Source: Chlorella sorokiniana
Taxonomy: Eukaryota; Chlorophyta; Trebouxiophyceae; Chlorellales; Chlorellaceae
NCBI GenBank assembly: GCA_025917655.1
Contig: CP084617.1
Span: 1,674,001-1,738,000, forward strand
DNA length: 64,000 nucleotides
Reading direction: 5' to 3'
The notes under the pieces are model-generated. The model saw only the letters and a program-made list of their open reading frames with translations, did no database searches and was not told the origin of the DNA. Of the stretch, positions 3,301-59,739 are shown piece by piece; positions within the stretch are counted from its first letter, which is position 1, and every line of letters begins with the position of its first letter. The position numbers and the translations under genes were made by a program.

Positions 3301-3732
3301 AGCAGAGGCCGCAGCCGCAGCAGGAGCAGGGGAGAGCGGCGCAGGAGCAGCAGCCGGCACAGGGAGCGGACGGAGCGAGGCCGCTACTGCCGGAATGGCA
3401 GTCTCAGCCGCAGCCGCAGCCGCAGCAGGAGCCGCAGCAGGAGCAGGGGCAGGGGCAGGGGCAGGAGCATGGCAGAGAAGAGCCCAGGCTCTGGCTGGCG
3501 TCAGGACACGCGCAGCAGCCCGCCCTCTCTTGATGAGGATGGCGGCGCCCGCAAGCGCAAGCGGGACAGTACTGACGATGATGAGGGCGGCAGCACTCAG
3601 CGGCGGTGCCACACAGAGGAGCAGACAGAGGGATGGAAGGCAGCAGAGGCGCCAAAGGCGGACGTGGGCGCAGCTGCAGCGGCCGATGGGGGCCCGCTGG
3701 CGGCGAGAGCGGCGACGACCGATGGGAGTTGA
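331..3732 (+). CDS. dsRNA-binding domain protein with Gly/Tyr-rich middle and RS-rich C-terminus
   Basis: Probable nuclear RNA-binding protein; the role is inferred from domains. The first exon (331-725) encodes a Q/A/P-rich leader ending YPAVKSLLQKFK. The second (928-994) reads ERGQEQFPLAVLNEYATR, and the next, from 1227, continues VDFKLEQASLSGGFRVDVRL and then GHARNKQAGKQVAAAALLEAL-type helix. Together these form a good dsRBD (alpha-beta-beta-beta-alpha, with the KxxAKxxAA-like end). Later exons give GGYG repeats (1756-1840, from about 2053), an exon opening GRFGAVSVSPFQRSRR near 2359, long runs of SR dipeptides (2974-3465) and a charged tail ending at 3732. The intron 995-1226 has a GC donor (CAG|GCGGGT). 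The RS frame switches near 3036 and near 3290, and another switch lies at the G run 1394-1400. These fit missing homopolymer bases. The true start may lie upstream. A dsRBD joined to an RS domain could also be a splicing or RNA-export factor. Confidence 0.6.
2974..3465 (+). repeat. CGCAGC-type hexamer repeats encoding SR dipeptides
   Basis: Degenerate repeats of CGCAGC/AGCCGC encode Ser-Arg runs in the RS-rich tail of the dsRBD gene. The Ser-Arg reading moves from one frame to another within the repeat, so this tract is prone to length change or misassembly. Confidence 0.75.
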
Positions 3733-13743: not shown

Positions 13744-13853
13744 TGAGAGAGGAGCGGCCAGCTGAGAGTCAAGAGCGACGAGCTGGCGGCTGGTTGGTTT
13801 ACACGCATGGCACGACTCCAAGGGGCATCCATCCCGGCGCTGCTTACTTCAGC
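13744..13853 (+). promoter_or_regulatory. Conserved upstream block of mTERF copy A
   Basis: This block opens GAGAGAGGAG and carries GAGCTGGCGGC...GGTTGGTTT immediately upstream of the start codon. The same order of blocks precedes copies C, D and E, with copy A the most diverged. It is probably shared promoter or 5' UTR sequence, kept either because the units are recently duplicated or because it is functional. Confidence 0.5.
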
Positions 13854-15796
13854 ATGCGTGTATTCAATGCAGCGAGCCTTAGGCTGCGGCGGCTTTGTTC
13901 CACGAGTTTCAGCGATCACTTGGCGAAGGACGGCAGCGGCAGCATACAGTGCAACGCTGCTTCGGAACTAAACATCCACGCCGTCTCATTTAATCCGCGG
14001 GAGCCTCCCTGTTCGTCGAAAGGCGAGGTGAGGGCTTGCCGCTGGCGCCGCCGCCAGCCTCCAGTAAGCCACTGCCCAGAGTACACACCTGCTGGCCTTG
14101 CTTGGTGCTGTTGAGGCGCTTGATGGGTTTGTTGTGCCAGCCACAATGGCACGCAGCTCATTGGACGATATGGGTTGTTGCCAACCACCAGCTGGCGGCA
14201 GCTGCACCACCCTGCTGGGGTCGCTCAGCCTGCTGACCGTGCCAGCATCGCTTTGCGACAGCCCAGCAGCTGTTGGCAGGCCGCCAGCCTCAGCCACAAC
14301 GCGCATTCAGCTGACGATGCCGACAGTAGCAACATGTTTGAGACAGTGCTGACCCGGAAAGGCAAGCGGGTGCCCGTACCGCCTGACCTGGCAGGCACGC
14401 TTGCCCCGCTGGCTGCGCAGTGCGGCTTGAGCGGCAGGGAGGCGGAGGTGGCAAGAGGAGTGGTCGCCCTTGTCGAGAAGCGGCAGCAGGGCGCGCTGCA
14501 GCATAACGCAGCAGTGGCAGCCTACTTGACTGGCCTGGGCATTGAGCAGGTTCAGCTTGGCCGGCTGCTGCTGCGGTGCCCATACCTTTTCAGCTGGCCG
14601 GTGGAGCAGCGTGCTGGCGTGCTGTTTGGGCAGCTGATGGCGCTGGGGTTGACTGCGGCGCAGGCAGCCCGCTGCGTTGAGCAACAGCCTTTTGCAGCTG
14701 AAACACCCAGCTTTGAGCCAGCTATTGCGGTGCTGGCGCCGCTGCTGGCTGCCGGGTGCAGGGCCAGCGACGTCGGCAAGCCGGGGGAGCAGCTGCTGGG
14801 AGAGCTGCTTGTCAGGCAGCCAGCAGCAGTGCGGCTGCTTCAGTTTCGCGAAGATTTGCTGCAGCAGCGGTTAGAAAATCTTCTGCAGCTGGGCCTGACA
14901 GAGCGGCAGCTGGTGGCATGCTTGCAGCAATCATTGTCTTTGCTGTCATATCCTTCCAAGCGCCTGGCAGCTCGGGAAGCGTTGCTGCAGCAGGAGCTGG
15001 GTGCCGACCGCCAGCTGTGGCTCAAGCTGCTGCACAGCGCCCCTAAGGGGGCCACCGTGGCAGAAGACACGCTGCGGCAGCGGGCGCAGGCGCTTGTTGC
15101 GGTGCGTGCCTGCAGTGAGCGCCTTGGGTCCTTGCTGTTCCAACTCACACTTTACCTGAGCATCTGTTGCAGGAGTTTGGCAGGGAAGAAGCGCTGCGGA
15201 TGGTCAGCGCTGCACCTGGGTTGCTGGCTGTCCGCACCGCTGTGTGGCGGCGTGCTCTGGCGGTGTGGGGCCTGTGCGGCGTGGCAGACCCCCGGGCAGT
15301 GGCCGTCAATTGCGCTCAGACTGTCTATCAGGACTGGCTGCGCCCGTCCATCCAGGCCAACCTGCTGGCACTGCAGCGCTACCTGCCCTGGCAGCCATCA
15401 GCCGCCGAGGTGATTGAGCAGTTTGCCAGCTATGTCAGCACTTACGCGGTAAAGCGGCTGGCCGGACGGCTGCTGTTCCTGGAGCAGGCCGGCCTGCTGC
15501 CGCTGCTGGTGGCGGAGAAACGCATCGCGCTTCAGGAGTGGCGGCTGCAGCAGGGGCTGCCTGTCAACAAGAAGGCAGCAGGCGAGCCACTGTTCATCAG
15601 TGTCTGCGATGTGGGTCATTCAAGTGACGCTGCCTTTGAGCAGCAGCTGGAGCAGCTGGGCGTGGACAGCGGCAGTTGGGCTGCGTTCAGAGGGAGCTTG
15701 GAGCGTCTGCCTGCCTGGCAGCAGCTGATGGCGGCTGCGGCGGCGGAGGCGGCACGGCTGCAGGGGCTGCTGCCTCCAGATGTGTCTCCTGAGTGA
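13854..15796 (+). CDS. mTERF-like gene, copy A (intact)
   Basis: Three exons with matching phases: 13854-14027, 14157-15101 and 15173-15796, giving about 580 residues. Exon 1 begins MRVFNAASLRLRRLCSTSF, an Arg/Ser/Ala-rich stretch typical of an organelle-targeting peptide. Exon 2 carries mTERF-type helical repeats, for example GLGIEQVQLGRLLLRCPYLF followed by LMALGLTAAQAARCVEQQP, and LLQLGLTERQLVACLQQSLS. Exon 3 continues with EEALRMVSAAPGLLAV and VKRLAGRLLFLEQAGLLPLL. The pattern (leucine, glycine-leucine and a proline about every 30-35 residues) fits mitochondrial transcription termination factor proteins, which bind organellar nucleic acids. This is the only copy in the array that I read without a frame break. 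Target organelle and ligand are unknown. Confidence 0.8.
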
Positions 15797-16617
15797 GAGG
15801 GCGAGCCTGGCACACAGTCTGGATCGTGTGGCTTGATCTGCGAATGTTGCTGGACCCGCATAAACCGGTAAAGGCACGACAATGCTTGCGCGGCTATCGT
15901 CTGCTACTTTTGTTTTACCTGGCAGCTGCCGACTGCCTACTGCTCAGCTGCTTTCCGGTTACTGCTTGGGCGCAGTAGCCTTGCCCTTCCTCATTTTCAA
16001 CTCTCTCTTGAGCCGTTCACTGGTTCACATGCCTTGAGCAGTTGACCATAAGAAGGAGGCGCAGTGCCGCACAAAGCGCTGCACAGCGTGGCGAGACCGG
16101 CCAGGGAATGGCAGGCAGCGGGCAGGGCTGGTCGGTGCAGGATCGGCCGCAAGCCTTGGCAAGGAACAGCGCTGTGAACCTGGCGAGGCGCTGGCTGGTG
16201 GTTTTTGGTACCGCCTCAGACTGCGTCCAGCCCAGCTGGGTGCACCTGTGTCCTTGATTTGGAAAGCATGGCCGGGCTCCAAGCCCCGGTGCTGCTGCCG
16301 CACGATGCCGCTGCTGCCCCGCCTCCAGCCCCGCACGCTCCTGCCAGTCCGGACGGCTTGCTGCCGGCTGTTCCCTCGCCGCCGCCGCTACAAGGCTCCG
16401 ATAGAGCCACGGCCCGCTGCTTGGCACCCTGTGCGGCGGCGGCGTCTGCGGGGTGGTACCGCGCTGTCCTGATGGGAGTACTGCTGGCACCGCTGGGAGG
16501 CTGGGGGCCAGAGACGGCGCAGCAGTGGAGGCCCTGCTGCTGCCGCCGCTGCGGAGGCGCCCAGCACCAGCCCGCAGATCATCAGCAGGCCAGCGCCACC
16601 GCTGCTGCCGCCGCTAA
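15797..16617 (+). repeat. Duplicated 3' flank shared with copy E
   Basis: From the stop of copy A to about 16320 the DNA matches the sequence after copy E (26904-27240). Shared strings include TGTGGCTTGATCTGC-like, TGCTGGACCCGCAT and CTGCGTCCAGCCCAGC. No credible coding frame is present. The rest, up to 16617, leads into a relic of a type-2 copy. Confidence 0.6.
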
Positions 16618-17106
16618 CGGTGCATTGCTCGGTGGTGTGGCAGCGCAACCTGGGGGTGATGCGGCTGTGCGGCGTGGCCGACCCTCTTGCAGAGGCGGCT
16701 GCCCACGCCAACAGACTCCCATGCCACTGGCTCATAACACCCTGCGTGGCCAATCGGCTGGCAGTGCAGCGCTGCCTGGGGCTGTCGGCTGGTGCAGTGT
16801 AGGGCGGCATGCCCCATGCCTGGCTGGCCAGTCAGTGCAGCGGGTGGCGGGGCGGATGCTGTTCTTGAAGCACACTGGCGTGCCAGCCCGGGAGCTCAGC
16901 CGAGCATGCTTGCTGCTTTGACGGATGCAGCACTTGACAGCTGGCTGTTGAAGCGTGGCAGCGGGGGCCGGAGCGCGTTCAAGCAGGGCGAGCTGGAGGG
17001 ACTGCCCGCCTGGCGGCACCTGATGGCAGAAGCGAAACGGGAGGCGCAACAGATGTTGGCAGAGCTGCCATCAAAGCAGCGGGAGGCGTCGAGAAGGCGT
17101 AGAAAG
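16618..17106 (+). pseudogene. Relic of third exon of a type-2 (F-like) mTERF gene
   Basis: VWQRNLGVMRLCGVADPLAE, then AHANRLPCHW, CVANRLAVQRCLGLS and finally DSWLLKRGSGGRSAFKQGEL match the third exon of copy F (57902-58474) in order, but in different frames. No complete first or second exon accompanies it. It is a degraded fragment of a copy of the F type, lying between A and B. Confidence 0.65.
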
Positions 17107-17440
17107 CGGGCGGCACCAATCGCTGGCTGTGGAGACCGTCGTGTGCCGTTGTTCGCCACTGCCTTGTCTTTGGCCTTGCAAGGTGCATGTGGACCCACCA
17201 CACATCAAAGGTATCCACCAATCAGCTCACCCGCTTGAGCGATTGGTAGCGCAGGCAGGGGCAAGGCCACCAACACAGGAGCTGGGCCTGCTTTGCCCGC
17301 TCTGCCGCCACCGCTCCGCCCAGGCAGGGGGATGGTTGCCTCTCAGATCGGGTGTGGGCCGCGCCGCCGACACCGTCCTTTCACCGCTTTGTGGTTTTAT
17401 CCCTGTGCTTCTGAGCACCGGCGTTCACAAATACGCCCCG
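17107..17440. other. Spacer upstream of mTERF copy B
   Basis: No coding frame that I can support. It lacks the conserved upstream block of copies A, C, D and E, in line with the different first exon of copy B. Confidence 0.5.
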
Positions 17441-19348
17441 ATGGCAGCGCTCGCGGCTGGGGTGGGGCCAGCTTCGCCGCTCTTACGCCGCTTCAAGCAC
17501 GCCTCCCCGCGGCTGCTGGGGGTCACGAGCCGCCTGGCAGCGCGTCCAGTGGCAGGGTGAGGGTCGCCCGGCGACGCCGCCCGCCTCCGGCTTGCGCGCT
17601 CTCTGCTCCTGTTCTGCCCATCTTGCTGCAACCGCCAAGCGAGCAGCAATGTGCGGCAAGCACCGGCCACCATTTTGCATGATCAAGATGGAAATGCCCA
17701 TGGTTTGCTTGCGGCAGGCAGTTCTGTGGTCGCATCAAGCAGCGCCGAAGCGGCGACGCCAGCAGCGGCCTGTGTGGGCGCCCTGTTCAGCAGGCCATGC
17801 AGCAGCTGACAGCGAAGAGTGCGGGGCAGAGATGGTTGTCAGTCAGCGCGGCAAGCCGGTGGCTTTGTTGCCAGACCTTGCGTACAGGCTGGCGCCGCTG
17901 GCAGTGCAATGCGGCGTGAGCGGCAAGGAGGCCGATCTGGCGCGGGCTGTGGCCAAGCTCTATAGAATCCGTCAGCAGGGTGTGGTGCAGCATGGCGCAT
18001 CAGTGGCAGCGTACTTGACTGGCCTGGGCATTGAGCAGGTTCAGCTTGGCCAGCTGCTGCTGCGCTGCCCATACCTGTTCAGCTGGCCAGTGGAGCAGCG
18101 TGCTGGTGTGCTGTTTGGGCAGCTGACGGCGCTGGGGTTGACAGCAGCTCAGGCAGCGCGCTGCTTTGAGCAGCATCCGTTTGCAGCTTTCAGCCGGTCC
18201 TTTGAGCCAGCCATTGCACAGCTGGCGCCGCTGCTGGCTGCTGGGTGCAAGGCCAGCGACGTCGGCAAGACGGGGAGCAGCTGCTGGGAGAGCTGCTTGT
18301 CAGGCAGCCAGCAGCAGTGCATCTGCTTCCACTTCGCACAGAGACGCTGCAGCAGCGCATAGGCAGCCTGCTGCAGCAGGGCCTGACAGAATCCCAGCTG
18401 GTGGCGGCAGTGCAGCAAGCTTCTTCCCTGCTGGCATTCCCCCGAGCGCCTGGCAGCTCAGAAAGCGGTGCTGCAGCAGGAGCTGGGCGGTGACCGCCAG
18501 CTGTGGCTCAAGGTGCTGCACAGCGCCCCTAAGGGGGCCACCATGGCAGAAGACACACTGCGGCAGCGGGCGCAGACTCTAGTTGCGGTGCGTGCCTGCA
18601 TTGAGCGCCTTTGCTCCTCGCTGTTCTACTCACACTTTACCTGACCATCTGTTGCAGGAGTTTGGCAGGGAAGAAGGGCTGCGGATGGTCAGCGCTGCAC
18701 CTGGATTGCTGGCTATCCGCACCGCTGTGTGGCGGCGTGCTCTGGCGGTGTGGGGCCTGTGCGGCGTGGCAGACCCCCGGGCAGTGGCCGTCAATTGCGC
18801 TCAGACTGTCTATCAGGACTGGCTGCGCCCGTCCATCCAGGCCAACCTGCTGGCACTGCAGCGCTACCTGCCCTGGCAGCCATCAGCCGCCGAGGTGATT
18901 GAGCAGTTTGCCAGCTATGTCAGCACTTACGCAGTAAAGCGGCTGGCCGGGCGGCTGCTGTTCCTGGAGCAGGCCGGCCTGCTGCCGCTGCTGGTGGTGG
19001 ACAAACGCGTTGCACGGCAGGAGTGGCGGCAGCAGCAGGGGCTGCTTGTCAGCAAAAAGACAGCTGGCGAGCCACTGTTCGTCAGTGTTCTGCAATGTGG
19101 CTATTCTGAGCGATGCAGCCTTCGAACAGCAGGTACAGCAGCTGAGCGTGCGCAGCGGCAGCTGGGTGGCGTTCAGGGGCAGCTTGGAGCAGCTGTCTGC
19201 CTGGCAGCAGCTGATGGCGGCTGCGGAGGCGGAAACGGCACGGCTCCAGCGTCTGCTGCCTTTGGATCTGCAGCTAGCAACAAAGGAGGTTGCCCGGGGG
19301 AGAGATAAGCTGCCTGGGGCCGGGCCACGGCTTGACAGCGCTGAGTGA
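17441..19348 (+). CDS. mTERF-like gene, copy B (mosaic; apparent frame breaks)
   Basis: The likely first exon (17441-17556) reads MAALAAGVGPASPLLRRFKH and is related to exon 1 of copy F, not to that of A/C/D/E. The second exon, from about 17718, contains EMVVSQRGKPVALLPDL and GKEADLARAVAKL, again closest to F, then becomes array-like (GLGIEQVQLGQLLLRCPYLF). The third exon starts near 18659 and is almost identical to that of A over 216 bp (18717-18932). Frame breaks appear at a G4 run (18272-18275), a C5 run (18439-18443) and near 19087; the first two would vanish with one extra base. It ends at 19348. The copy is either a pseudogene or a gene broken only in the assembly. The exon 1/2 junction phase is unresolved. 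Confidence 0.55.
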
Positions 19349-19762
19349 CAGCTGGCTTTATAACTGTGCTTCATGTGACATTGCCACATCCAGTTTTGGG
19401 CAGGGCCAGAGCTGTGTATCCAGAGCCGGTTCAACCCCACTCAGCTGTCAAGTCGCAGCCATCTGAGTGCTGTCTGTCCCGCCTGAAGTGATCGGCAGGC
19501 GAGACACCCCCTGCTGCAACCGCCTTATCTACAACGGAGGCCATGCTCCACTTCGCACAGCTTAGCTGTCAGCTCGCGGCGGCCAGGACGCTGAATCGAT
19601 TCACAGACTAGTATCATTCCACCCTGACACAGCCTCCATCCCTCGAGCCTTGGCCAGCCCTGCAAGAGCTAGCTGCAGGCCTTGCAATATGAAGGATGAC
19701 CAGGAAAAGGCTTTCTCATTTTCAAGACATGCATCAAGCATGCAGCCGTGCCAGTTTGGGTG
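19349..19762. other. Inter-unit spacer of the mTERF array
   Basis: Shares CTGTCAAGTCGCAGCCATC and flanking sequence with the spacers after copies C and D, so the repeat unit includes 3' flanking DNA. No gene seen. Confidence 0.6.
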
Positions 19763-19876
19763 GAGAGAGGAGTGGCCACCATCGCGGCACACAAGGAGCG
19801 GCGAGCTGGCGGCAGGCTGGTTTGCACGGATGGCTGGGCTTCGAGGGCGCCGCGCTGAAGCACTGCTTGATTCATC
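19763..19876 (+). promoter_or_regulatory. Conserved upstream block of mTERF copy C
   Basis: GAGAGAGGAGTGGCCACC, then GAGCGGCGAGCTGGCGGC, then GATGGCTGGGCTTCGAGGG lie just before the start codon. The order and spacing are as in copies D and E. Confidence 0.55.
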
Positions 19877-21878
19877 ATGCGCGCACTGTGTGCAGCAAGC
19901 CGTAGGCTGCGGCGGTTGTGTTCCGCGAGTTTCAGCGATCAGCTGGCGAAGGACGGCAGCAGCAGCGTGCAGTGCAGCGCTGCTTTTGAAGTACACATCC
20001 GGACCGTGTCAGCCCCGCCCTGTGAGTCGTCTTGTTCCGCGGCAGGCGAGGTGAGGGCTTGCCGCTGCCGCCGCCGCAAGACCTCCAGCAAGCCACTGCC
20101 CAGACTACATGCCTGCTGGCCTAGCTTGGTGCTGTTGAGGCGCTTTATGTGTTTGTGTGTTGGCCACATTGCAGCTTCATGGACGATATGTGGTCTTGCC
20201 ACCTAACAGTCGGCGGCAGCTGCGCCAGCCCACGAGGTTGTTCAGCCCACCGACCGCGCCAGCAGCGCGTTGCGGCAGCCCAGCAGCTGTTGGCAGGCCG
20301 CCAGCCTCAGCCATAGCACTCAGTCAGTCAGTGATGCTAAATACGACACCATGTTTGAGACAGTGGTGACCCGGAAAGGCAAGCTGGCGGCCGTACCGCC
20401 TGACCTGGCAGGCACGCTTGCCCCGCTGGCTGCACAGTGCGGCTTGAGCGGCAGGGAGGCTGAGCTTGCTGGATTGGCGGCTGCGCTTGCCCAGAAGCGG
20501 CAGCAGGGTGTGCTGCAGCATGGCACATCCGTGGCAGCCTACTTGACTGGCCTGGGCATTGAGCAGGGGCAGCTTGGCCGGCTGCTGATGCGCTGCCCAT
20601 ACCTGTTCAGCTGGCCGGTGGAGCAGCGGGCTGGCGTGCTGTATGGGCAGCTGATGGCGCTGGGGCTGACAGCAGCTCAGGCAGGGCGCTGCTTCGAGCA
20701 GCATCATTTTGCAGCTTTGAGCCCCAGCTTTGCGCAAGCAATTGCCGTGCTAGCGCCGCTGCTGGCTGCTGGGTGCAAGGCCAGCGACATTGGCAAGACG
20801 GGGCTGCAGCTGCTGGGAGAGCTGCTTGTCAGGCAGCCAGCTGCAGTGAGGCTGCTTCAATTTCGCAGAGAGTTGCTGCAGCAGCGCATTGGCAGCCTGC
20901 TGCAGCAGGGCCTGACAGAGCGCCGGCTGGTGGCAGGCTTGCAGCAAACAATGTCCCTGCTGACGTTCCCGCCCGAGCGCCTGGCAGCTCAGGAAGCGGT
21001 GCTGCAGCAGGAGCTGGGTGCTGACCACCAGCTGTGGCTCAAGGTGCTGCACAGCGGCAGCAGGGCCATTGCGGCAGAAGACAGGCTGCGGCGGCGGGCG
21101 CAGGCGCTAGTTGCGGTGCGTACCTGCAACGAGTGCCTTCGCTGTTCTGACCCACACTGAACCTGAGCATCTGTGTGCAGGAATTTGGCAGGGAAGAAGC
21201 GCTGCGGATGGTCAGCGTTGCACCTGCATTGTTGACCACCCGCACGGCTGTGTGGCGGCGCGCTATGGCGGTATGGGGCCTGTGCGGCGTGGCAGACCCC
21301 GGGTGGTGGCCATCAATCACGCACTTGATCTCAGTATTGACTGGCTGCGCCCCTCTATCCAGGCCAACCTGCTGGCACTGCAGCGCTACCTGCCCTGGCA
21401 GCCATCAGCAGCCGAGGTGATTGAGCGCTTTGCCAGCTATGTCGGCGGCTTTGCAGCAGAGCGACTGGCCGGGCGGCTGCTGTTTCTGAAGCAGACCGGC
21501 TTGCTGCCGCTGCTGGTGGCAGACAAACGCATCGCGCTTCAGGAGTGGCGGCAGCAGCTGGGGCTGCCTGTGAACAAGAAGACAGCGGGCGAGCCACTGT
21601 TCATCAGTGTCGGCAATGTGGCTACTCTTAGCGACGCAGCCTTTGCGCAGCAGCTGCAGCAGCTGGGCGTGGACAACAGCATCTGGGCTGCATTCAGGGG
21701 CATCTTGGAGCAGCTGCCTGCTTGGCAGCAGCTGTTGGCGGCTGCGGAGGCGGAAGCGGCGCGGCTGCAGGGGCTGCTGCCTTTGGAGCTGCAGGTTTCG
21801 GAGGTTGCGGCGAAGCAGGTGCCCAGGAGGAGCTCTGAGCTGCTTGGGGCCGGGCCACGGCTCAACAGACCTGATTGA
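19877..21878 (+). CDS. mTERF-like gene, copy C (two apparent frame breaks)
   Basis: Exon 1 is 19877-20050 (58 codons, MRALCAASRRLRRLCSASFS, targeting-like). Exon 2 runs 20175-21115 and exon 3 21181-21878, with the splice phases of copy A. mTERF repeats include GLGIEQGQLGRLLMRCPYLF and LLQQGLTERRLVAGLQQ. The early part of exon 2 changes frame where a TT stands in place of the TTT of copy E (20238-20239). Exon 3 changes frame at a C4 run (21297-21300) where copies A, B and E have C5. Both would be cured by one extra base in the run, so assembly error is a serious alternative to pseudogenisation. The C-terminus ends LLGAGPRLNRPD. Confidence 0.65.
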
Positions 21879-22110
21879 AAGCTATTTTTGCTTCAAAACT
21901 CCTTTTGCAAATCGCCACACCCAGGTTTGGTCATGCTCAGAGCTGTACGGCAACACAGATCATCACCACAGGCACAGCTGTCAAGTCGCAGCCATCCGAG
22001 TGCTGTCCGTCTCGCCTGAAGCTGTCGGCAGGCTGTAAGCCAGCACTGTGCGACCTGAGCAGCAGTTTGGACGCAATTTCCCAAGAGTAGGCCTCCCCTC
22101 TTATCAACCC
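21879..22110. other. 3' flank of mTERF copy C
   Basis: Contains the spacer motif CTGTCAAGTCGCAGCCATC shared with the other units. No gene seen. Confidence 0.5.
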
Positions 22111-22230
22111 CCCCCGCCCCCACCACCATCCCACCACCACCCTCCGCCCCTCCCACCTCTCCCCCCATCCCACCCCTTCCATCCCTGCCAGCGCTCCCGC
22201 CGCCCCCTCCCAACCCTCCCAGCTCTCCCA
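22111..22230 (+). repeat. Polypyrimidine tract between copies C and D
   Basis: About 120 bases almost free of G on this strand (CCACCACC, CCTCCC and CCATCC runs). It occupies the place of the segment with AAGACATGC and CAAGCATGCAG found upstream of copies C and E, so it looks like a replacement or insertion specific to this spacer. Confidence 0.7.
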
Positions 22231-22321
22231 GTCTAGATAGCTGCAGGCCTTGTGCTTTGGGAAAATGTCCTGAAAGTGTTCTTCACTTGCATCAACTGCG
22301 GCGTCGTGCCAGTCTGGGCCC

Positions 22322-22435
22322 GAGAGAAGAGTGGCCACCATCGCGGCACGCTAGGAGCGGCGAGCTGGCGGCAGGTTGGTTTGCAAGGGTGGCTGGGCTT
22401 CGAGGGCGCCGCGCTCCGGCGCTGCTTACTTCAGC
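22322..22435 (+). promoter_or_regulatory. Conserved upstream block of mTERF copy D
   Basis: GAGAGAAGAGTGGCCACC, then GAGCGGCGAGCTGGCGGC and GTGGCTGGGCTTCGAGGG precede the start codon, closely matching copies C and E. Confidence 0.55.
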
Positions 22436-24423
22436 ATGCGTGTATTTAATGCAGCGATCCGTAGGCTGCGGCGGCTTTGTTCCACGAGTTTCAGCGTTCA
22501 GCTGGCGAAGGACGGCAGCAGCAGCATACAGTGCAGCGCTGCTTTTAAAGAACACATCCACACCGTGTCATTATTGCCCTGGGAGTCGTCCTGTTCCGCG
22601 GCAGGCGAGGTGAGGGGTGCCGGTGCCGCCGCTGCAAGCCTCCAGTAAACCACTGCACAGAATACACGCCTGCTGCCCTTGCTTGGTGACCTTTAGGCGG
22701 TTGATTTGCTTTGTGTGCAGTTCAGCGGACGATGTGGATTGTTGCCGATCAACAGCTGCCGGCAGCGCCAGCCTGCTGGGGCGGCTCAGCCTGCTGACCG
22801 TTCTGGCAGCGCTGGGCGCTACGCCGGCAGCTGGTGGCAGGTCGCCAGCCTCAGCCACAGCGCTCAGTCAGCTGACAATGCCGATGGCTGCAACACGTTG
22901 GAGACAGTGATGAACCGGCGTGACAAGCTGGCGACCGTACTGCCTGATCTTGCGAACATGCTGGCGCCGCTGGCTGCGCATTGCGGCTTGAGCGGCAGGG
23001 AGGCGGAGCTTGCTGGATCGGTGGCTGCGCTTGCCCAGAAGCGGCAGCAGGGCGCGCTGCAGCATGGCATATCGGTGGCAGCCTACTTGGCCGGCCTGGG
23101 CATTGAGCAGGGGCAGCTTGGCCGGCTGCTGATGCGCTGCCCATACCTGTTCAGCTGGCCGGTGGAGCAGCGTGCTGGCGTGCTGTTTGGGCAACTGACG
23201 GCGCTGGGGCTGACTGCGGCTGAGGCAGCTCGCTGCTTTGAGCAGCAGCCTCTAGCAGCTGAAAACCCCAGCTTTGAGCCAGCCATTGCAGTGCTGGCAT
23301 CGCTGCTGGCTGCTGGGTGCAGGGCAAGCGACGTCGACACGCGAGGGCAGCAGCTGCTGGGAGAGCTGCTTGTCAGGCGACCAGCAGCAGTGCTGCTGCA
23401 TCAGTATCGTGCAGAGTTGCTGCAGCAGCGCATAGGCAGTTTGGTGCAGCTGGGCCTGACAGAGCGGCAGCTGGTGGCATGCTTGCAGCAAGAGTTTTCC
23501 CTGCTGACAGTCCGTCCCGAGCGCCTGGCAGCTCAGGAAGCGGTGCTGCAGCAGGAGCTGGGTGCCAACCGGCAGCTGTGGCTTAAGGTGCTGCACAGCG
23601 CCACGCAGGGGGCCACCATGGCAGAAGACAAGCTGCGGCAGCGGGCACAGGCTCTAGTTGCGGTGCGTGCCTGCACTGAGCGCCTTGGCTCCCTGCTGTT
23701 CTGACCCACACTGAACCTGAGCATCTGTGTGCAGGAGTTTGGCAGGGAAGAGGCGCTGCGGATGGTCAGCACTGCACCCCAGTTGTTGGCCGTCCGCACG
23801 GCTGTGTGGCGGCGCGCTCTGGCGGTGTGGGGCCTGTGTGGCGTGGCAGACCCCGGGCGGTGGCCATCAATTGCGCTCGAACTGTTTACCATGACTGGCT
23901 GCGCCCGTCTGTCCAGGCCAACCTGCTGGCATTGCGGCACTACCTGCCCTGGCAGCCATCAGCAGCCGAAGTGATTGAGCGCTTTGCCAGCTATGTCAGC
24001 GGCTTTGCAGCAGAGCGGCTGGCCGGACGGCTGCTTTTGCTGGAGCAGGCCGGCTTGTTGCCGCTGCTGGTGGGGGACAAACGAAATGCGCTCCAGGATT
24101 GGCGGCTTGAGAAGAGGTTGCCTGTTAACAAGAAGACAGCAGGCGAGCCACTGTTCATCAGTGTCGCCAATGTGGCCGCTCTGAGCGACGCTGCCTTTAA
24201 GCAGCAGTTGCAGCAGCTGGGCGTGGACAACAGCAGCTGGGCTGCGTTCAGGGCCTGCTTGGAGCAACTATCTGCCTGGCAGCATCTGACGGCGGCTGCG
24301 GAGGCGGAGGCGGCGCGACTGCAGCGACTGTTGCCTCTGGAGCTGCAGATTGCAACGAAGCAGGTGCCCAGGAGGAGCTACAAGCTGCCGGGGTCCGGGC
24401 CAGGCTTGATGGCACTCAGTTAA
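22436..24423 (+). CDS. mTERF-like gene, copy D (one apparent frame break)
   Basis: Exon 1 is 22436-22609 (MRVFNAAIRRLRRLCSTSF). Exon 2 begins at 22721 in phase 0 and stays open to its donor near 23659. Exon 3 starts at 23735 and ends at 24423. Repeats include GLGIEQGQLGRLLMRCPYLF, LTALGLTAAEAARCFEQQP and LVQLGLTERQLVACLQQ. The only break is in exon 3 at a C4 run (23851-23854), the same site as in copy C; the downstream frame then runs to the end. With one extra C the gene would encode a protein of nearly 600 residues like copy A. Its C-terminus (GSGPGLMALS) is of the C/B type. Confidence 0.7.
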
Positions 24424-24856
24424 AGCTGGCTTTGATCCTGTGCTCCATGTGCAGGGTGCCACATCCAGTTTTGGGGAGGGTCAGAGCTGTATGGCAGCAC
24501 AGATCATCACCACAGACACAGCTGTCAAGTCGCAGCCATCCGAGTGCTGCCCCTGCTACGCCTGAAGCGGTCAGCAGGCCGTATAACCTGGCGGCATCCG
24601 CCTGCGCTGCAATGGAACGCATGCCCCCACTCCACACAGCCTAGCTGTCCGCGCTCGGTGGCCTTGACGCTGGACCGATTCACTGGCTCGTGTCATTCCA
24701 CCCTGACACAGCCTCCATCCCTCGAGCGCTTGCCCGCCTGTTTTTCTGTGGCAGCAACGAGCTAGCCGCAGGCCTTGCAATATGAAATTTAACCAGGAAA
24801 AGGTTTCCTCATTCGCAAGACATGCGTCAAGCATGCAGTCATGCCAGCCTGAGGCT
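24424..24856. other. Inter-unit spacer of the mTERF array
   Basis: Repeats the spacer found after copies B and C, including CACATCCAGTTTTGGG and CTGTCAAGTCGCAGCCATC, and the pre-unit segment with AAGACATGC and CAAGCATGCAG. No gene seen. Confidence 0.6.
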
Positions 24857-24970
24857 GAGAGAGGAGTGGCCACCTCCGCGGCACTCTAGGAGCGGCGAGC
24901 TGGCGGCAGGTTGGTTTGCACGGATGGCTGGGCTTTGAGGGCGCCGTGATCCGGCGCTGCTTCGTTGGTC
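24857..24970 (+). promoter_or_regulatory. Conserved upstream block of mTERF copy E
   Basis: GAGAGAGGAGTGGCCACC, GAGCGGCGAGCTGGCGGC and GATGGCTGGGCTTTGAGGG just before the start codon, as in copies C and D. Confidence 0.55.
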
Positions 24971-26903
24971 ATGCGTGTACTCATTGTAGCAAGCCGCAGG
25001 CTGCGGCGGTTGTGTTCCGCGAGTTTCAGCGATCAGGTGGCGAAGGACGGCAGCGGCAGCGTGCAGTGCAGCGCTGCTTTTGAAGTAAATATTCACACCG
25101 TGTCAGCCCCACCCTGGGAGCCGTCCTGTTTCGCGGCGGGCGAGGTGAATGACGCCGCCGCAAGCCCTCCAGCAAACCATTGCACAGACTGCGTGCATGC
25201 TGCCCTTGCTTGGTGCTGTTGAGGTGATTGATGTTTTGTGTGTGCCGGACACACATGCACGCAGCTCAATGGACGATATGTGGTCTCGCCAACGAACAGC
25301 TGGCAGCAGCTGCGCCAGCCTGCTGCGTTTGTTCAGCCCACCGACTGGGCAGGCTGCGCATTGCGACAGCCCAGCAGCTGTTGGCAGGCCGCCAGCCTCA
25401 GCCACAACGCGCATTCAGCTGACGATGCCGACAGTAGCAACATGTTTGAGACAGTGGTGACCCGGAAAGGCAAGCGGGTGCCCGGACCGCCTGACCTGGC
25501 AGGCACACTTGCCCCGCTGGCTGCGCAGTGCGGCTTGATCGGCAGGGTGGCGGAGTTGGCGAGAGCAGTGGCTACCCTTGTCGAGAAGCGGCAGCAGGGC
25601 ATCAAAGACCATGGCGCATCAGTGGCAGCCTGCTTGACTGGCCTGGGCGTTGAGCAGGGGCAGCTGGGCCGGCTGCTAATGCGCTGCCCATACCTGTTCA
25701 GCTGGCCGGCGGAGCAGCGTGCTGGCGTGCTGTTTGGGCAGCTGACGGCGCTGGGGCTGACGGCGGCTGAGGCAGCTCGCTGCTTCGAGCAGCATCCTTC
25801 AGCAGCTGGCAGTGCCAGTTTTGCGCCAGCTGTTGAGGTGCTGGCGCCACTTCTGGCTGCTGGGTGCAGGGCCAGCGACGTCGGCAAGCCTGGGGAGCAG
25901 CTGCTGGGAGAGCTGCTTGTCAGGCAGCCAGGTGTAGCGCATCTGTTACAATTACGCACCGAGACTCTGCAGCAGCGGTTAGCAAACCTGCTGCAGCTGG
26001 GCCTGACAGACCGCCAGCTGGTGACAGGCCTGCAGCAAACGACGTCCCTGCTTTCATATCCCCCGAGCGCCTGGTAGCTCAGGAAGCGTTGCTGCAGCAG
26101 GAGATGGGTGCCGACCGCCAGCTGTGGCTCAAGGTGCTGCACAGCGCCACGCAGGGGGCAATTGCAGCAGAAGACAAGCTGCGGCAGCGGGCACAGGCGC
26201 TAGTTGCGGTGCGTGCCTGCACTGAGCGCCTTGGCTCCCTGCTGTTCTGACCCACACTGAACCTGAGCATCTGTGTGCAGGAATTTGGCAGGGAAGAAGC
26301 GCTGCGGATGCTCGGCGCTGCACCTGGGTTGCTGACTGCCCGTACGGCTGTGTGGCGACGTGCTCTGGCGGTTTGGGGCCTGTGCGGCGTGGCAGACCCC
26401 CGGGCGGTGGCCATCAATTCTGCCCAAACTGCCTACCAGGATTGGCTGCGCCTGTCCATCCAGGCCAACCTGCTGGCACTGCGGCGCTACCTGCCCTGGC
26501 AGCCATCAGCAGCCGAGGTGATTGAGCGCTTTGCCAGCTATGTCAGCGGCTTTGCAGCAGAGCGGCTGGCAGGACGGCTGCTTTTGCTGGAGCAGGCCGG
26601 CTTGTTGCCGCTGCTGGTGGGGGACAAACGAATCGCGCTTCAGGATTGGCGGCTTGAGAAGAGGTTGCCTGTCAGCAAGAAGCCAGCAGGCGAGCCACTG
26701 TTCATCAGTGTCCGCGATGTGGCACTTTAAGCAATGCAGCCTTTGAACAGCAGGTGGAGCAGCTGGGCGTGCATAGCGGCAGCTGGGCTGTGTTCAAGGG
26801 CAGCTTGGAGCAGCTGCCAGCCTGGCAGCAGCTGATGGCCGCTGCAGAGGCGGAGGCGGTGCGGCTGCAGGTGCTGCTGCCTCCTCAAGCGTCTCTTGAG
26901 TGA
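24971..26903 (+). CDS. mTERF-like gene, copy E (two apparent frame breaks)
   Basis: Exon 1 is 24971-25144 (MRVLIVASRRLRRLCSASFS). Exon 2 begins at 25265 and exon 3 at 26281. The start of exon 2 is identical to that of copy A over 94 bp (25363-25456), while exon 3 resembles copy D (VGDKRIALQDWRLEKRLPV). The frame breaks at a C5 run (26060-26064), the same site as in B and F, and at a T3 run (26726-26728). Each would be cured by one more base. The reading after the second break ends VLLPPQASLE, like the end of copy A. mTERF repeats such as GLGVEQGQLGRLLMRCPYLF are intact. Confidence 0.65.
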
Positions 26904-27240
26904 GGGGTGAGCCTGACGCACAGTCTGAATTTGGTGGCTTGATCTGCCATTGCTGCTGGACCCGCATCAACCGGCAGCAAGGCACGATAATGCTTGTGCA
27001 GCCATCGCCTGTAACCTTCAACTGGCTGTTGCCCAGCTTCCGACCGGGTACTGCTCGGCTGCTTGCCAGCGCAACATTGACCGCAAGCCTCTTCAAGCAA
27101 CAGCGCTGGGAAACTGGCAAGGCGCTGGCTGGTGGGCATTTGTGCCGCCTCAGACTGCGTCCAGCCCAGCTGGGTGCACCTGCGTCCCGATGTGGAAAGC
27201 ATGGCCGGCCTCCAAGCCCACGTGCTGCTGCCGCGCGACA
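26904..27240 (+). repeat. Duplicated 3' flank, second copy
   Basis: Matches 15797-16320 after copy A, including CTGCGTCCAGCCCAGC and AAAGCATGGCCGG. Copies A and E therefore share their 3' flank as well as their C-terminal ends, unlike B, C and D. Confidence 0.6.
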
Positions 27241-27345
27241 GGTGGGTGTCTGGCAGGCAGGCAGCTTGTTCCTTGCTGTCCAGCATGCCTGATCTGCTAA
27301 CGGTGCATTATCTGCAGCTGCGACAAGGAGAGGCGCTGCCGCGGG
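27241..27345 (+). pseudogene. Short relic of a type-2 mTERF third exon
   Basis: VSGRQAACSLLSSMPDLLTV matches the start of exon 3 of copy F (VFGRQTACSLLSSRPNLLVV), including the splice-acceptor side. The match then fades. The string CTAACGGTGCATT is also found at the relic near 16614, so the two relics are related. Confidence 0.55.
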
Positions 27346-57901: not shown

Positions 57902-59739
57902 TTAATTCAGGGTGCGGCCAGGATCCTGCACGCTCTCGGCGCCCGCTGCTCCCACGTTCTGCTCTGGCGGCAGCTCAGCCAGTATCCGCTGCGCCTCATG
58001 TTCCGCTTCCACCATCAGCTGCTGCCAGGCGGGCAGTCGCTCCAGCTCACTCTGCTTGAATGCGCTCCAGCTCCTGCTGCCCCGCTTCAACAGCCAGCTG
58101 TCAAATGCTGCATCCTTCAAAGAAGCAACCGTGCTCAGGCTTAGCTCCCAGGCTGGCACGCCAATGTGCTCCAGGAACAGCAGCCGCCCCGCCACCCGCT
58201 GCAGCGAAGAGCCCGCCAGGTAGCGGGCATACTGCTCGTAAGCGGCGGCAGCTGATAGCCCCAGGCAGCGCTGCACCGCCAGGCGGTTTGCCACGCAGGA
58301 TGTTGCCAGCCAACGGTATGGAAGCCTGTTGGCGTGGGCCACCGCCGCTGCAAGAGGGTCGGCCACGCCGCACAGCCGCATCACCTCCAGGTTGCGCTGC
58401 CACACCGACGAATCCACCACAAGCAGGTTGGGCCTGCTGGACAGCAAAGAACAAGCTGTCTGCCTGCCAAACACCTGCATACACAGGCCACGGGATGGCT
58501 GTGTGATGCGCCCGATGAGCGGTGGGGATGTAGGGACCATAAAACCCTAGAATCCCCCAAATCAAACTTGCAGAGACGTGTACAGGGCAAACACATCCGG
58601 GCCTTGGCCACTCACTGCCACAAGCGCTTGTGCCCGCTGCCGCAGCGTGTCCTCTGCCACGACGGCGGCGTTCGCCCCACTGTGCAGCACCTTGAGCCAC
58701 AGCTGGCGGTCGGCACCCAGCTCCTGCTGCAGCACCGCCTCCTGAGCTGCCAGGCGCTCGGGGGAACGTCAGCAGGGAAATCGTTTGCTGAAGGCCTGTC
58801 ACCAGCTGCCGCTCTGTCAGGCCCAGCTGCAGCAGGTTGTCTAACCGCTGCTGCAGCGCCTCTGTGCTAGATTGCAGCAGCGTAACGGCCACTGGTCGCC
58901 TGACCAGCAGCTCTCGCAGCAGCTGCTTGCCAGTCTTGCCGACGTCGCTGGCCCTGCACCCACCAGCCAGCAGCGGCGCTAGCACCGCAATGGCTGGTTC
59001 AAAGCTGGCGCTGCAAGCTGCTTCCGGTTGGCACTCAAAGCAGCGTGCTGCCTCAGCCGCTGTCAGCCCCAGTGCCATCAGCTGCCCAAACAGCATCCCA
59101 GCACGGTGCTCCACCGGCCAGCTGAACAGCAGCGGGCACCGCATCAGCAGCCGGCCAAGCTGCCCCTGCTCAATACCCAGGCGATTCAAGTAGGCTGCCA
59201 CTGATTCGCCATGCTGCAGCACATCTTGCTGCGTGTTCTATCAAGCTTGGCCACAGCCCGCGCCAGATCAGCCTCCTCACCGCTCATGCCGCATTGCTCT
59301 GCCAGCGGCGCCAACTCAGCCGCCAAGCTTGCTGGCACCGCCACGTGCTGTCCCCGTCGGTTGACAACCATCTCAGGTTCAGTTTCCTCAGCCATGGCTG
59401 TAGCATGAGCTGCCACACTGCACCGCACGCCAGCCAGATGCCGCCGCCGCCGCTGACATGCTGCTTGCTGCCACCAGGCTTGCTGCAAGCCCTGGACCTT
59501 GGGAGACTGCAAGAGCAACATTACAGCATCTCGGCCCAGACGACCTTGACTGCGCTGCAAACTGGGAGGGTGCCAACGGCGCGCCACAGCCACGACGTCG
59601 TCCCGCCAAGCGGCGGTGGCGGAACCCCTCACCAGGCGATTTGCGCGCTGCAAGGCGGCTGACGATCTCCATGACCACTTATGCCTTGTAGTTGAAGCGG
59701 CTCATGGGCGGCGAAGCCTCCCAACCCCGCCGCGAGCAT
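57902..59739 (-). CDS. mTERF-like gene, copy F (type 2, inverted, apparent frame breaks)
   Basis: Three exons on the minus strand: a first exon around 59739-59633 related to that of copy B (shared SRLAAR before a GTGAGG donor), a second from about 59490 to 58616, and a third at 58474-57902. Exon 2 has EMVVNRRGQHVAVPASLA, then LGIEQGQLGRLLMRCPLLF and LLQLGLTERQLVTGLQQ. Exon 3 reads VFGRQTACSLLSSRPNLLVV, VWQRNLEVMRLCGVADPLAA and LLFLEHIGVPAWELS, and is open to its stop. Breaks lie at a C5 run (58764-58760 on this strand), at the site where B and E break, near 59235 and possibly in exon 1. Two relics in the array (16618-17106, 27241-27345) belong to the same type. It may be a decayed gene or an under-called whole one. 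Confidence 0.55.

Follow-up and report, generated by a model that had tools for sequence, protein, structure and literature searches.

A subtelomeric, species-specific array of mTERF genes in Chlorella sorokiniana with variation at recurrent repeat positions

The window analysed here, 64,000 nucleotides of the Chlorella sorokiniana genome (contig CP084617.1, hereafter C12, positions 1,674,001 to 1,738,000 of the forward strand), contains part of a large cluster of mTERF genes, in which the most variable residues recur at the same few positions of the helical repeats. Direct repeats and a full multiple alignment both revealed five mTERF-like copies, A to E, lying head to tail on the plus strand, as the initial annotation had proposed. 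Two repeat families (D1 and D2) comprised five 300-nt blocks each with 84-95% identity and block spacings of 3485-3489, 2522-2528, 2544-2554 and 2547, while the remaining blocks ranged lower (60-99%). The spacings of 2559 and 2535 reported earlier between C, D and E were exact (repeat family D8), and the 5' and 3' flanks that had been assigned to the repeated unit were found to be shared by some copies only (families D8, D17, D19 and D20). In the full alignment, homology reaching to the 3' end begins at exon 1 in A, C, D and E and at exon 2 in B. Over the repeat part, pairwise identity among A-E is 76-82% for protein and 82-86% for DNA.

Copy A was modelled with three exons, two phase-0 introns with GT...AG borders and a product of 580 residues. 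Exon 1 (13854..14027) encodes a basic, arginine-rich N-terminus, exon 2 (14157..15101) carries mTERF repeats, and exon 3 (15173..15796, including the stop codon) follows a phase-0 intron found at the same place in other copies. Homologues of exon 1 occur in C, D, E, c1, c2 and c7-c13 (labels with c denote copies of the cluster other than A-E); copies with such a homologue have introns at both places, and the remaining copies share the second one. Copy B (17766..19270) consists of an exon 2 with an approximate start, extending to 18587, and an exon 3 from 18658, with three frame breaks in the assembly. Copy C (19877..21782; exons 19877-20050, 20175-21115 and 21181 onwards) has one break past residue 120 and another, in the model, around residue 78. 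Copy D (22436..24336; exons 22436-22609, 22721-23662 and 23735 onwards) has one frame break, and copy E (24971..26900; exons 24971-25144, 25265-26208 and 26281 onwards) has two, one of which is contradicted by the JGI protein P0002. The starts first given for A (13854), C (19877), D (22436) and E (24971) thus coincide with the conserved first exon; the one given for B, 17441, belongs to an exon that is not homologous to it. This first exon of B (17441-17556) differs from the others and is also basic, alanine-rich and followed by a GTGAGG donor.

Two relics had also been announced. One is coding, a last exon of a second sub-type (that of copies c21-c23) at 16634..17079 on the plus strand, whose DNA is 84% identical to 57959-58406 and which shows 58% amino acid identity to the c22 exon across 62 residues. 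The other was given no place; if the segment at 26904..27238 (plus strand) was meant, it encodes no mTERF part and is a copy of a 3' flank common to A (15794-15956 and 16147-16305) and to the flank of c14. A sixth copy in the window, c21, which is absent from the initial annotation, lies on the minus strand at 57962..59410 and has two frame breaks, both contradicted by the JGI protein P0083.

Assignment to the mTERF family, made at first from the motif pattern, was confirmed. Copy A matched PF02536 with an E-value of 1.9e-9 and 37.3 bits, above the cut-off of 23.1. When the exon-2 frames of C, D and E were scanned, D (32.6) and E (26.1) also exceeded the cut-off and C (19.8) remained below it. 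A profile match to human MTERF3 was obtained (E 3.1e-7), and structures predicted for a C. vulgaris homologue and for exon 2 of copy A were superhelices of helix-helix-short-helix repeats like those of MTERF1 and MTERF3. The closest known structure was MTERF1 on DNA, with a score of 19.8 (14.5 for exon 2), and sequence identity to human MTERF1 (PDB 3mva, 5crk, 5crj and others) is 14%. Folds of TAL effectors also scored, with Z up to 9.5, which was read as a general likeness between repeat proteins. PF02536 was the only family reported for copy A at E-values up to 10, with neither OPR repeats nor a RAP domain among the matches. An arginine-rich basic N-terminus was observed in 13 of the 20 main copies; together with the family it points to import into an organelle, for which the N-terminus by itself would be only suggestive.

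The initial annotation spoke of a local burst, an expression that understates the extent of the cluster. With copy A as query, at least 85 match places were detected in the 38.8-Mb, 15-contig genome, all of them on contig C12 at 1486678-1761175, and a diverged copy as query gave at least 64, every one in the same region. When the hits were chained, 23 copies emerged, which form eight groups and occupy both strands; six belong to the window (A-E and 57962-59410) and 17 lie outside it. This count refers to the sequence that was read, which leaves out 1738001-1756000 (18 kb inside the cluster) and 30 kb telomere-ward. Since TTTAGGG telomere repeats end the contig at 1793675, the cluster is located about 32-307 kb from the chromosome end.

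Related algae possess expansions of their own. At least 34 homologues were found in C. vulgaris (D9Q98_0102xx-0103xx), for all of which a contig of 2,150,204 bp is given and one of which has the outlying locus number 006885; the 31 homologues of the first search were 50-59% identical to copy A. Micractinium contributed six copies, and at least one homologue each was present in C. sorokiniana, C. ohadii and C. variabilis. Both searches scored about 8000 candidates, and these counts are lower bounds. A tree of 71 proteins placed the 23 copies of the array, 31 C. vulgaris proteins and six Micractinium proteins each on one side of a branch, with supports of 100/99, 100/99 and 100/100, respectively; of the 11 rows that belonged to no group, four from JGI fell inside the clade of the array and one within that of C. 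vulgaris. Four of the 34 C. vulgaris homologues bear no Pfam label. Another, D9Q98_010314 (P0010), is annotated as an mTERF with protein-kinase pieces at both ends and is probably a gene-model fusion of neighbours. A C. sorokiniana family member without Pfam label, P0044, carries the public name '16S rRNA methyltransferase G', likely a misannotation.

The copies have exchanged sequence with one another. The observed run statistic was reached in none of 300 permutations, and A and B have 108 consecutive identical polymorphic sites in common. In c21 an exon 2 of the main type is joined to an exon 3 of the second type, the type to which the relic at 16634-17079 also belongs, and this chimera is evidence of exon shuffling or conversion. 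The run statistic and the analyses of repeat offsets below, with the tests for selection at them, used the 20 main copies, c21-c23 being left out as diverged. The median pairwise ratio of nonsynonymous to synonymous substitution rates (dN/dS) was 0.47 for the exon 2 core, 0.45 for exon 3 and 0.70 for exon 1, the latter from 13 copies without the poorly modelled first exons of c3-c6, c14, c15 and B.

In order to locate the differences between copies, seven repeats were aligned on a conserved proline (P148, 184, 226, 264, 300, 334 and 367 of P0003); at two of these seven register positions the proline is missing from all or nearly all array copies. For C. vulgaris the 31 homologues of the first search were used, without three added later. 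Column variability of the two sets correlated over 300 repeat columns (Spearman 0.53), and the most variable offsets from the proline were +4, +1 and +5 in the array and +1, -3 and +4 in C. vulgaris. Random registers reached the observed maximum in 7 of 5000 cases for the array and in 12 of 5000 for C. vulgaris, and the variance of the profile in 0 and 2 of 5000, respectively. The excess in a window of +4 to +8, the first that was considered, was modest: 8 and 12 out of 299 shifts reached it, as did 22 and 36 out of 5000 random blocks. Offsets +1, +4 and +5 were among the top five of 29 in all five paralogue sets, namely A-E with c14 and c15, c1-c13, two C. vulgaris clades and the six Micractinium copies; the two sets from the array and the two from C. 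vulgaris are splits of the data used above, and the Micractinium set was examined after the offsets had been chosen.

A Pfam search of the C. sorokiniana genome detected a single PF02536 gene, on contig C2, and missed the array itself; further mTERF genes may therefore have escaped it, and the size of the family may be underestimated by domain screens. The C2 gene, which has clear relatives, with one row each in C. vulgaris, C. ohadii and Micractinium, served as control. It was represented by the first 35 of its 51 hits, putative orthologues that mostly bear no species name and whose median pairwise identity is 0.55. Here the offsets +1, +4 and +5 rank 29, 25 and 30 of 33 in variability, in contrast to ranks of 2, 1 and 3 in the array and of 1, 3 and 6 in C. 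vulgaris, and the contrast between array and control at these offsets is the highest among 3654 triples. Profiles of the array and of C. vulgaris showed no correlation with the control (-0.22 and -0.20) and correlated with each other at 0.76, and the control's most variable offsets (-11, -10 and -12) are not the most variable ones of the array. No usable alignment came from comparing profiles with MTERF1 as a single sequence (probability 4%), and the proline register inside MTERF1 itself was used. In this register, the residues R169 (+5), R202 (+1), R350 (+1) and R251 (+9) are reportedly DNA contacts. According to their titles, PDB entries of the MTERF1-DNA complex contain substitutions of F243, F322, R162 and Y288, which correspond to +1, +4, -2 and +11.

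On balance, we consider it probable that this species-specific subtelomeric mTERF array is a reservoir of binding specificities for organelle targets. Tandem duplication, gene conversion and exon shuffling would have enlarged the array, in which each gene is predicted to encode a superhelix of helix-helix-short-helix repeats whose scaffold is kept between copies. The proteins would be imported into an organelle, where the face of the short helices would meet nucleic acid. As duplication and exchange make copies, changes at +1, +4 and +5, the residues that would contact DNA or RNA, would alter what these copies bind, and targets would change. The earlier proposal of rapid adaptation to organelle targets thereby obtains indirect support from the repeat-offset pattern. 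A bolder version, to which we hold only tentatively, is that +1, +4 and +5 after the repeat proline constitute a specificity code similar to that of pentatricopeptide-repeat (PPR) proteins and that green algae of the Chlorella group possess a subtelomeric repertoire of such proteins, renewed quickly against changing transcripts or selfish sequences of the organelle. To our knowledge, how mTERF proteins choose their targets is an unsolved question. With the same few positions varying on a constant scaffold, and with three algae sharing their leading offsets although their copies form separate clades, the array offers positions to test and, if the interpretation is true, a natural data set for reading an mTERF specificity code.

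Several observations weigh against this interpretation. The offsets +1, +4 and +5 were picked after the profiles had been seen, with the control and the Micractinium set looked at later. There is a single control gene, which came from a search that overlooked the array, and it compares species with species, whereas the array compares paralogues within a species. Only four of the ten repeat sites with the highest second-position divergence are at +1, +4 or +5, and R162 and Y288 of MTERF1 occupy other offsets. The repeat region of copy A is barely basic (44 K+R versus 40 D+E), whereas human MTERF1, a single gene, has a more basic groove. Finally, NG86 omega for +4 to +8 is the same as for the rest (0.46 versus 0.49), and pN/pS at -3, +1, +4 and +5, although elevated to 0.84-0.93 compared with 0.50-0.58, stays below 1, since these codons also have raised synonymous divergence.

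The last of these points would be expected if the variation at +1, +4 and +5 reflected relaxed constraint on an exposed surface instead of selection for new specificity, as would the fourfold divergence of 0.363 at these offsets versus 0.201 elsewhere. Such a rise is, however, also expected if conversion homogenises the rest of the gene and not these codons. Divergence at second codon positions exceeds that at fourfold sites at +1/+4/+5 (0.390 versus 0.363) and falls short of it elsewhere (0.130 versus 0.201), and in the 40 closest pairs replacement outruns synonymous change (0.314 versus 0.210, compared with 0.099 versus 0.146 elsewhere); 15 of 21 codons at these offsets, but 59 of 279 others, are above the fourfold background. 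As the same offsets are strongly conserved in the control, whose variable offsets are different, relaxed constraint appears rather unlikely, and these data suggest diversifying selection at +1/+4/+5, with results that differ by method and do not amount to proof. Quite improbable, in our view, is a variable face that binds proteins, for instance the organelle ribosome or an rRNA methyltransferase, in the manner of MTERF4 and of mTERF-fold proteins of the mitoribosome: MTERF1 on DNA gave the higher structural score, although fold similarity does not decide function, acidic residues are rare at +1/+4/+5 (2% in the array, 4% in C. vulgaris), and such offsets hold F243 and F322 in MTERF1.

Frame breaks would be expected if the array were decaying, with most copies pseudogenes and their variability due to neutral drift. 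As assembled, only A among A-E is open through all exons (c7 and c12 are break-free elsewhere in the cluster), 31 breaks occur at residue 120 or later across the 23 copies, one stop each lies upstream of residue 126 in c3, c5 and c14 (poor models), and evolution is fast, as the dN/dS values of exons 2 and 3 indicate. However, along the aligned frame none of the 23 copies contains an in-frame stop at residue 126 or later, and for 22 of the 31 breaks a homopolymer of four or more bases lies within 9 nt, compared with 11.6% at random places. In C12:1480001-1738000, counts of G and C runs approximately halve from length 4 to 5 and then fall to about one eighth from 5 to 6; this pile-up at 5 looks like shortened runs and makes frameshift or pseudogene calls there unsafe. 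JGI proteins were continuous at all 12 break sites that they cover (11 of the 31 and one further upstream, in c1, c2, c5, c9, c11, c15, c21, c22 and E), with 100% identity on both sides, usually over 25 residues and over 13-15 at four places. This comparison used 14 proteins, five of which span no break, and leans towards continuity since predicted proteins favour open frames, yet none agreed with a break. Because of the base runs, the run-length counts and the continuous JGI proteins, most breaks are probably sequence errors, which is directly evident for one of the two in E and presumed for B, C and D. Under neutral drift, moreover, five paralogue sets would not be expected to vary at the same repeat offsets, and we regard decay as very unlikely. 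That the array is an assembly artefact is extremely improbable in spite of the many short indel errors in the assembly, as the proteins of A-E differ by 18-24%, C. vulgaris and Micractinium each possess their own copies, and JGI proteins from contigs of at most 109 kb, taken as separate assemblies, match 13 of the 23 copies with identity or one difference over the compared part.

The view that mTERF genes are usually dispersed does not always hold, since tandem clusters are described in Arabidopsis (nine genes on chromosome 1) and maize (PMC3981765) and in cereals (PMC10226603). The Arabidopsis and maize clusters likewise arose by tandem duplication, with fewer copies, and no analysis of offsets was found in the available part of that paper. 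The restorer-of-fertility-like (RFL) mTERF proteins of cereals (Walkowiak 2020, PMC7759465; PMC10226603) are similarly an expanded, clustered clade with restorer-like evolution, and clustered, species-specific expansion is found in the algal array as well. They belong, however, to land plants with cytoplasmic male sterility, whereas three-exon genes in one subtelomeric region of a unicellular alga are described here; the accessible portions of those papers contained no repeat-offset pattern, and no cereal name occurred among the homologue matches listed. Their role in suppressing mitochondrial sterility genes is still to be elucidated for cereals, according to the part of PMC10226603 available. 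The NCC-like (NCL) OPR genes of Chlamydomonas reinhardtii are likewise nuclear paralogous genes for helical-repeat factors, and ncc mutants are described, in the text accessible to us, as having gained new chloroplast RNA targets (PMC8635915); these are OPR-RAP proteins of tested function, in contrast to the array, which consists of mTERF genes known from sequence. As a proposed reservoir of binding specificities, the array resembles the RFL-PPR and RFL-mTERF clusters of cereals and the NCL-OPR genes, and this likeness is one of analogy, not of membership. If it extends to function, the array would place a restorer-type diversification between organelle and nucleus in unicellular algae without pollen sterility. 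In the parts consulted of a 2026 survey of helical-repeat organelle factors (PMC13126933), mTERF proteins are among the candidates and C. vulgaris is outside the set, and no such array was found there. Our literature searches retrieved no publication describing this array and, as far as the sources were accessible, no mTERF base code.

In the window neither an Rfam nor a tRNA match was obtained. Nine stop-to-stop open reading frames of 448-910 amino acids at 11860-45676 lacked any match to Pfam at E 0.01; as the DNA is rich in G+C, they may be open by chance.
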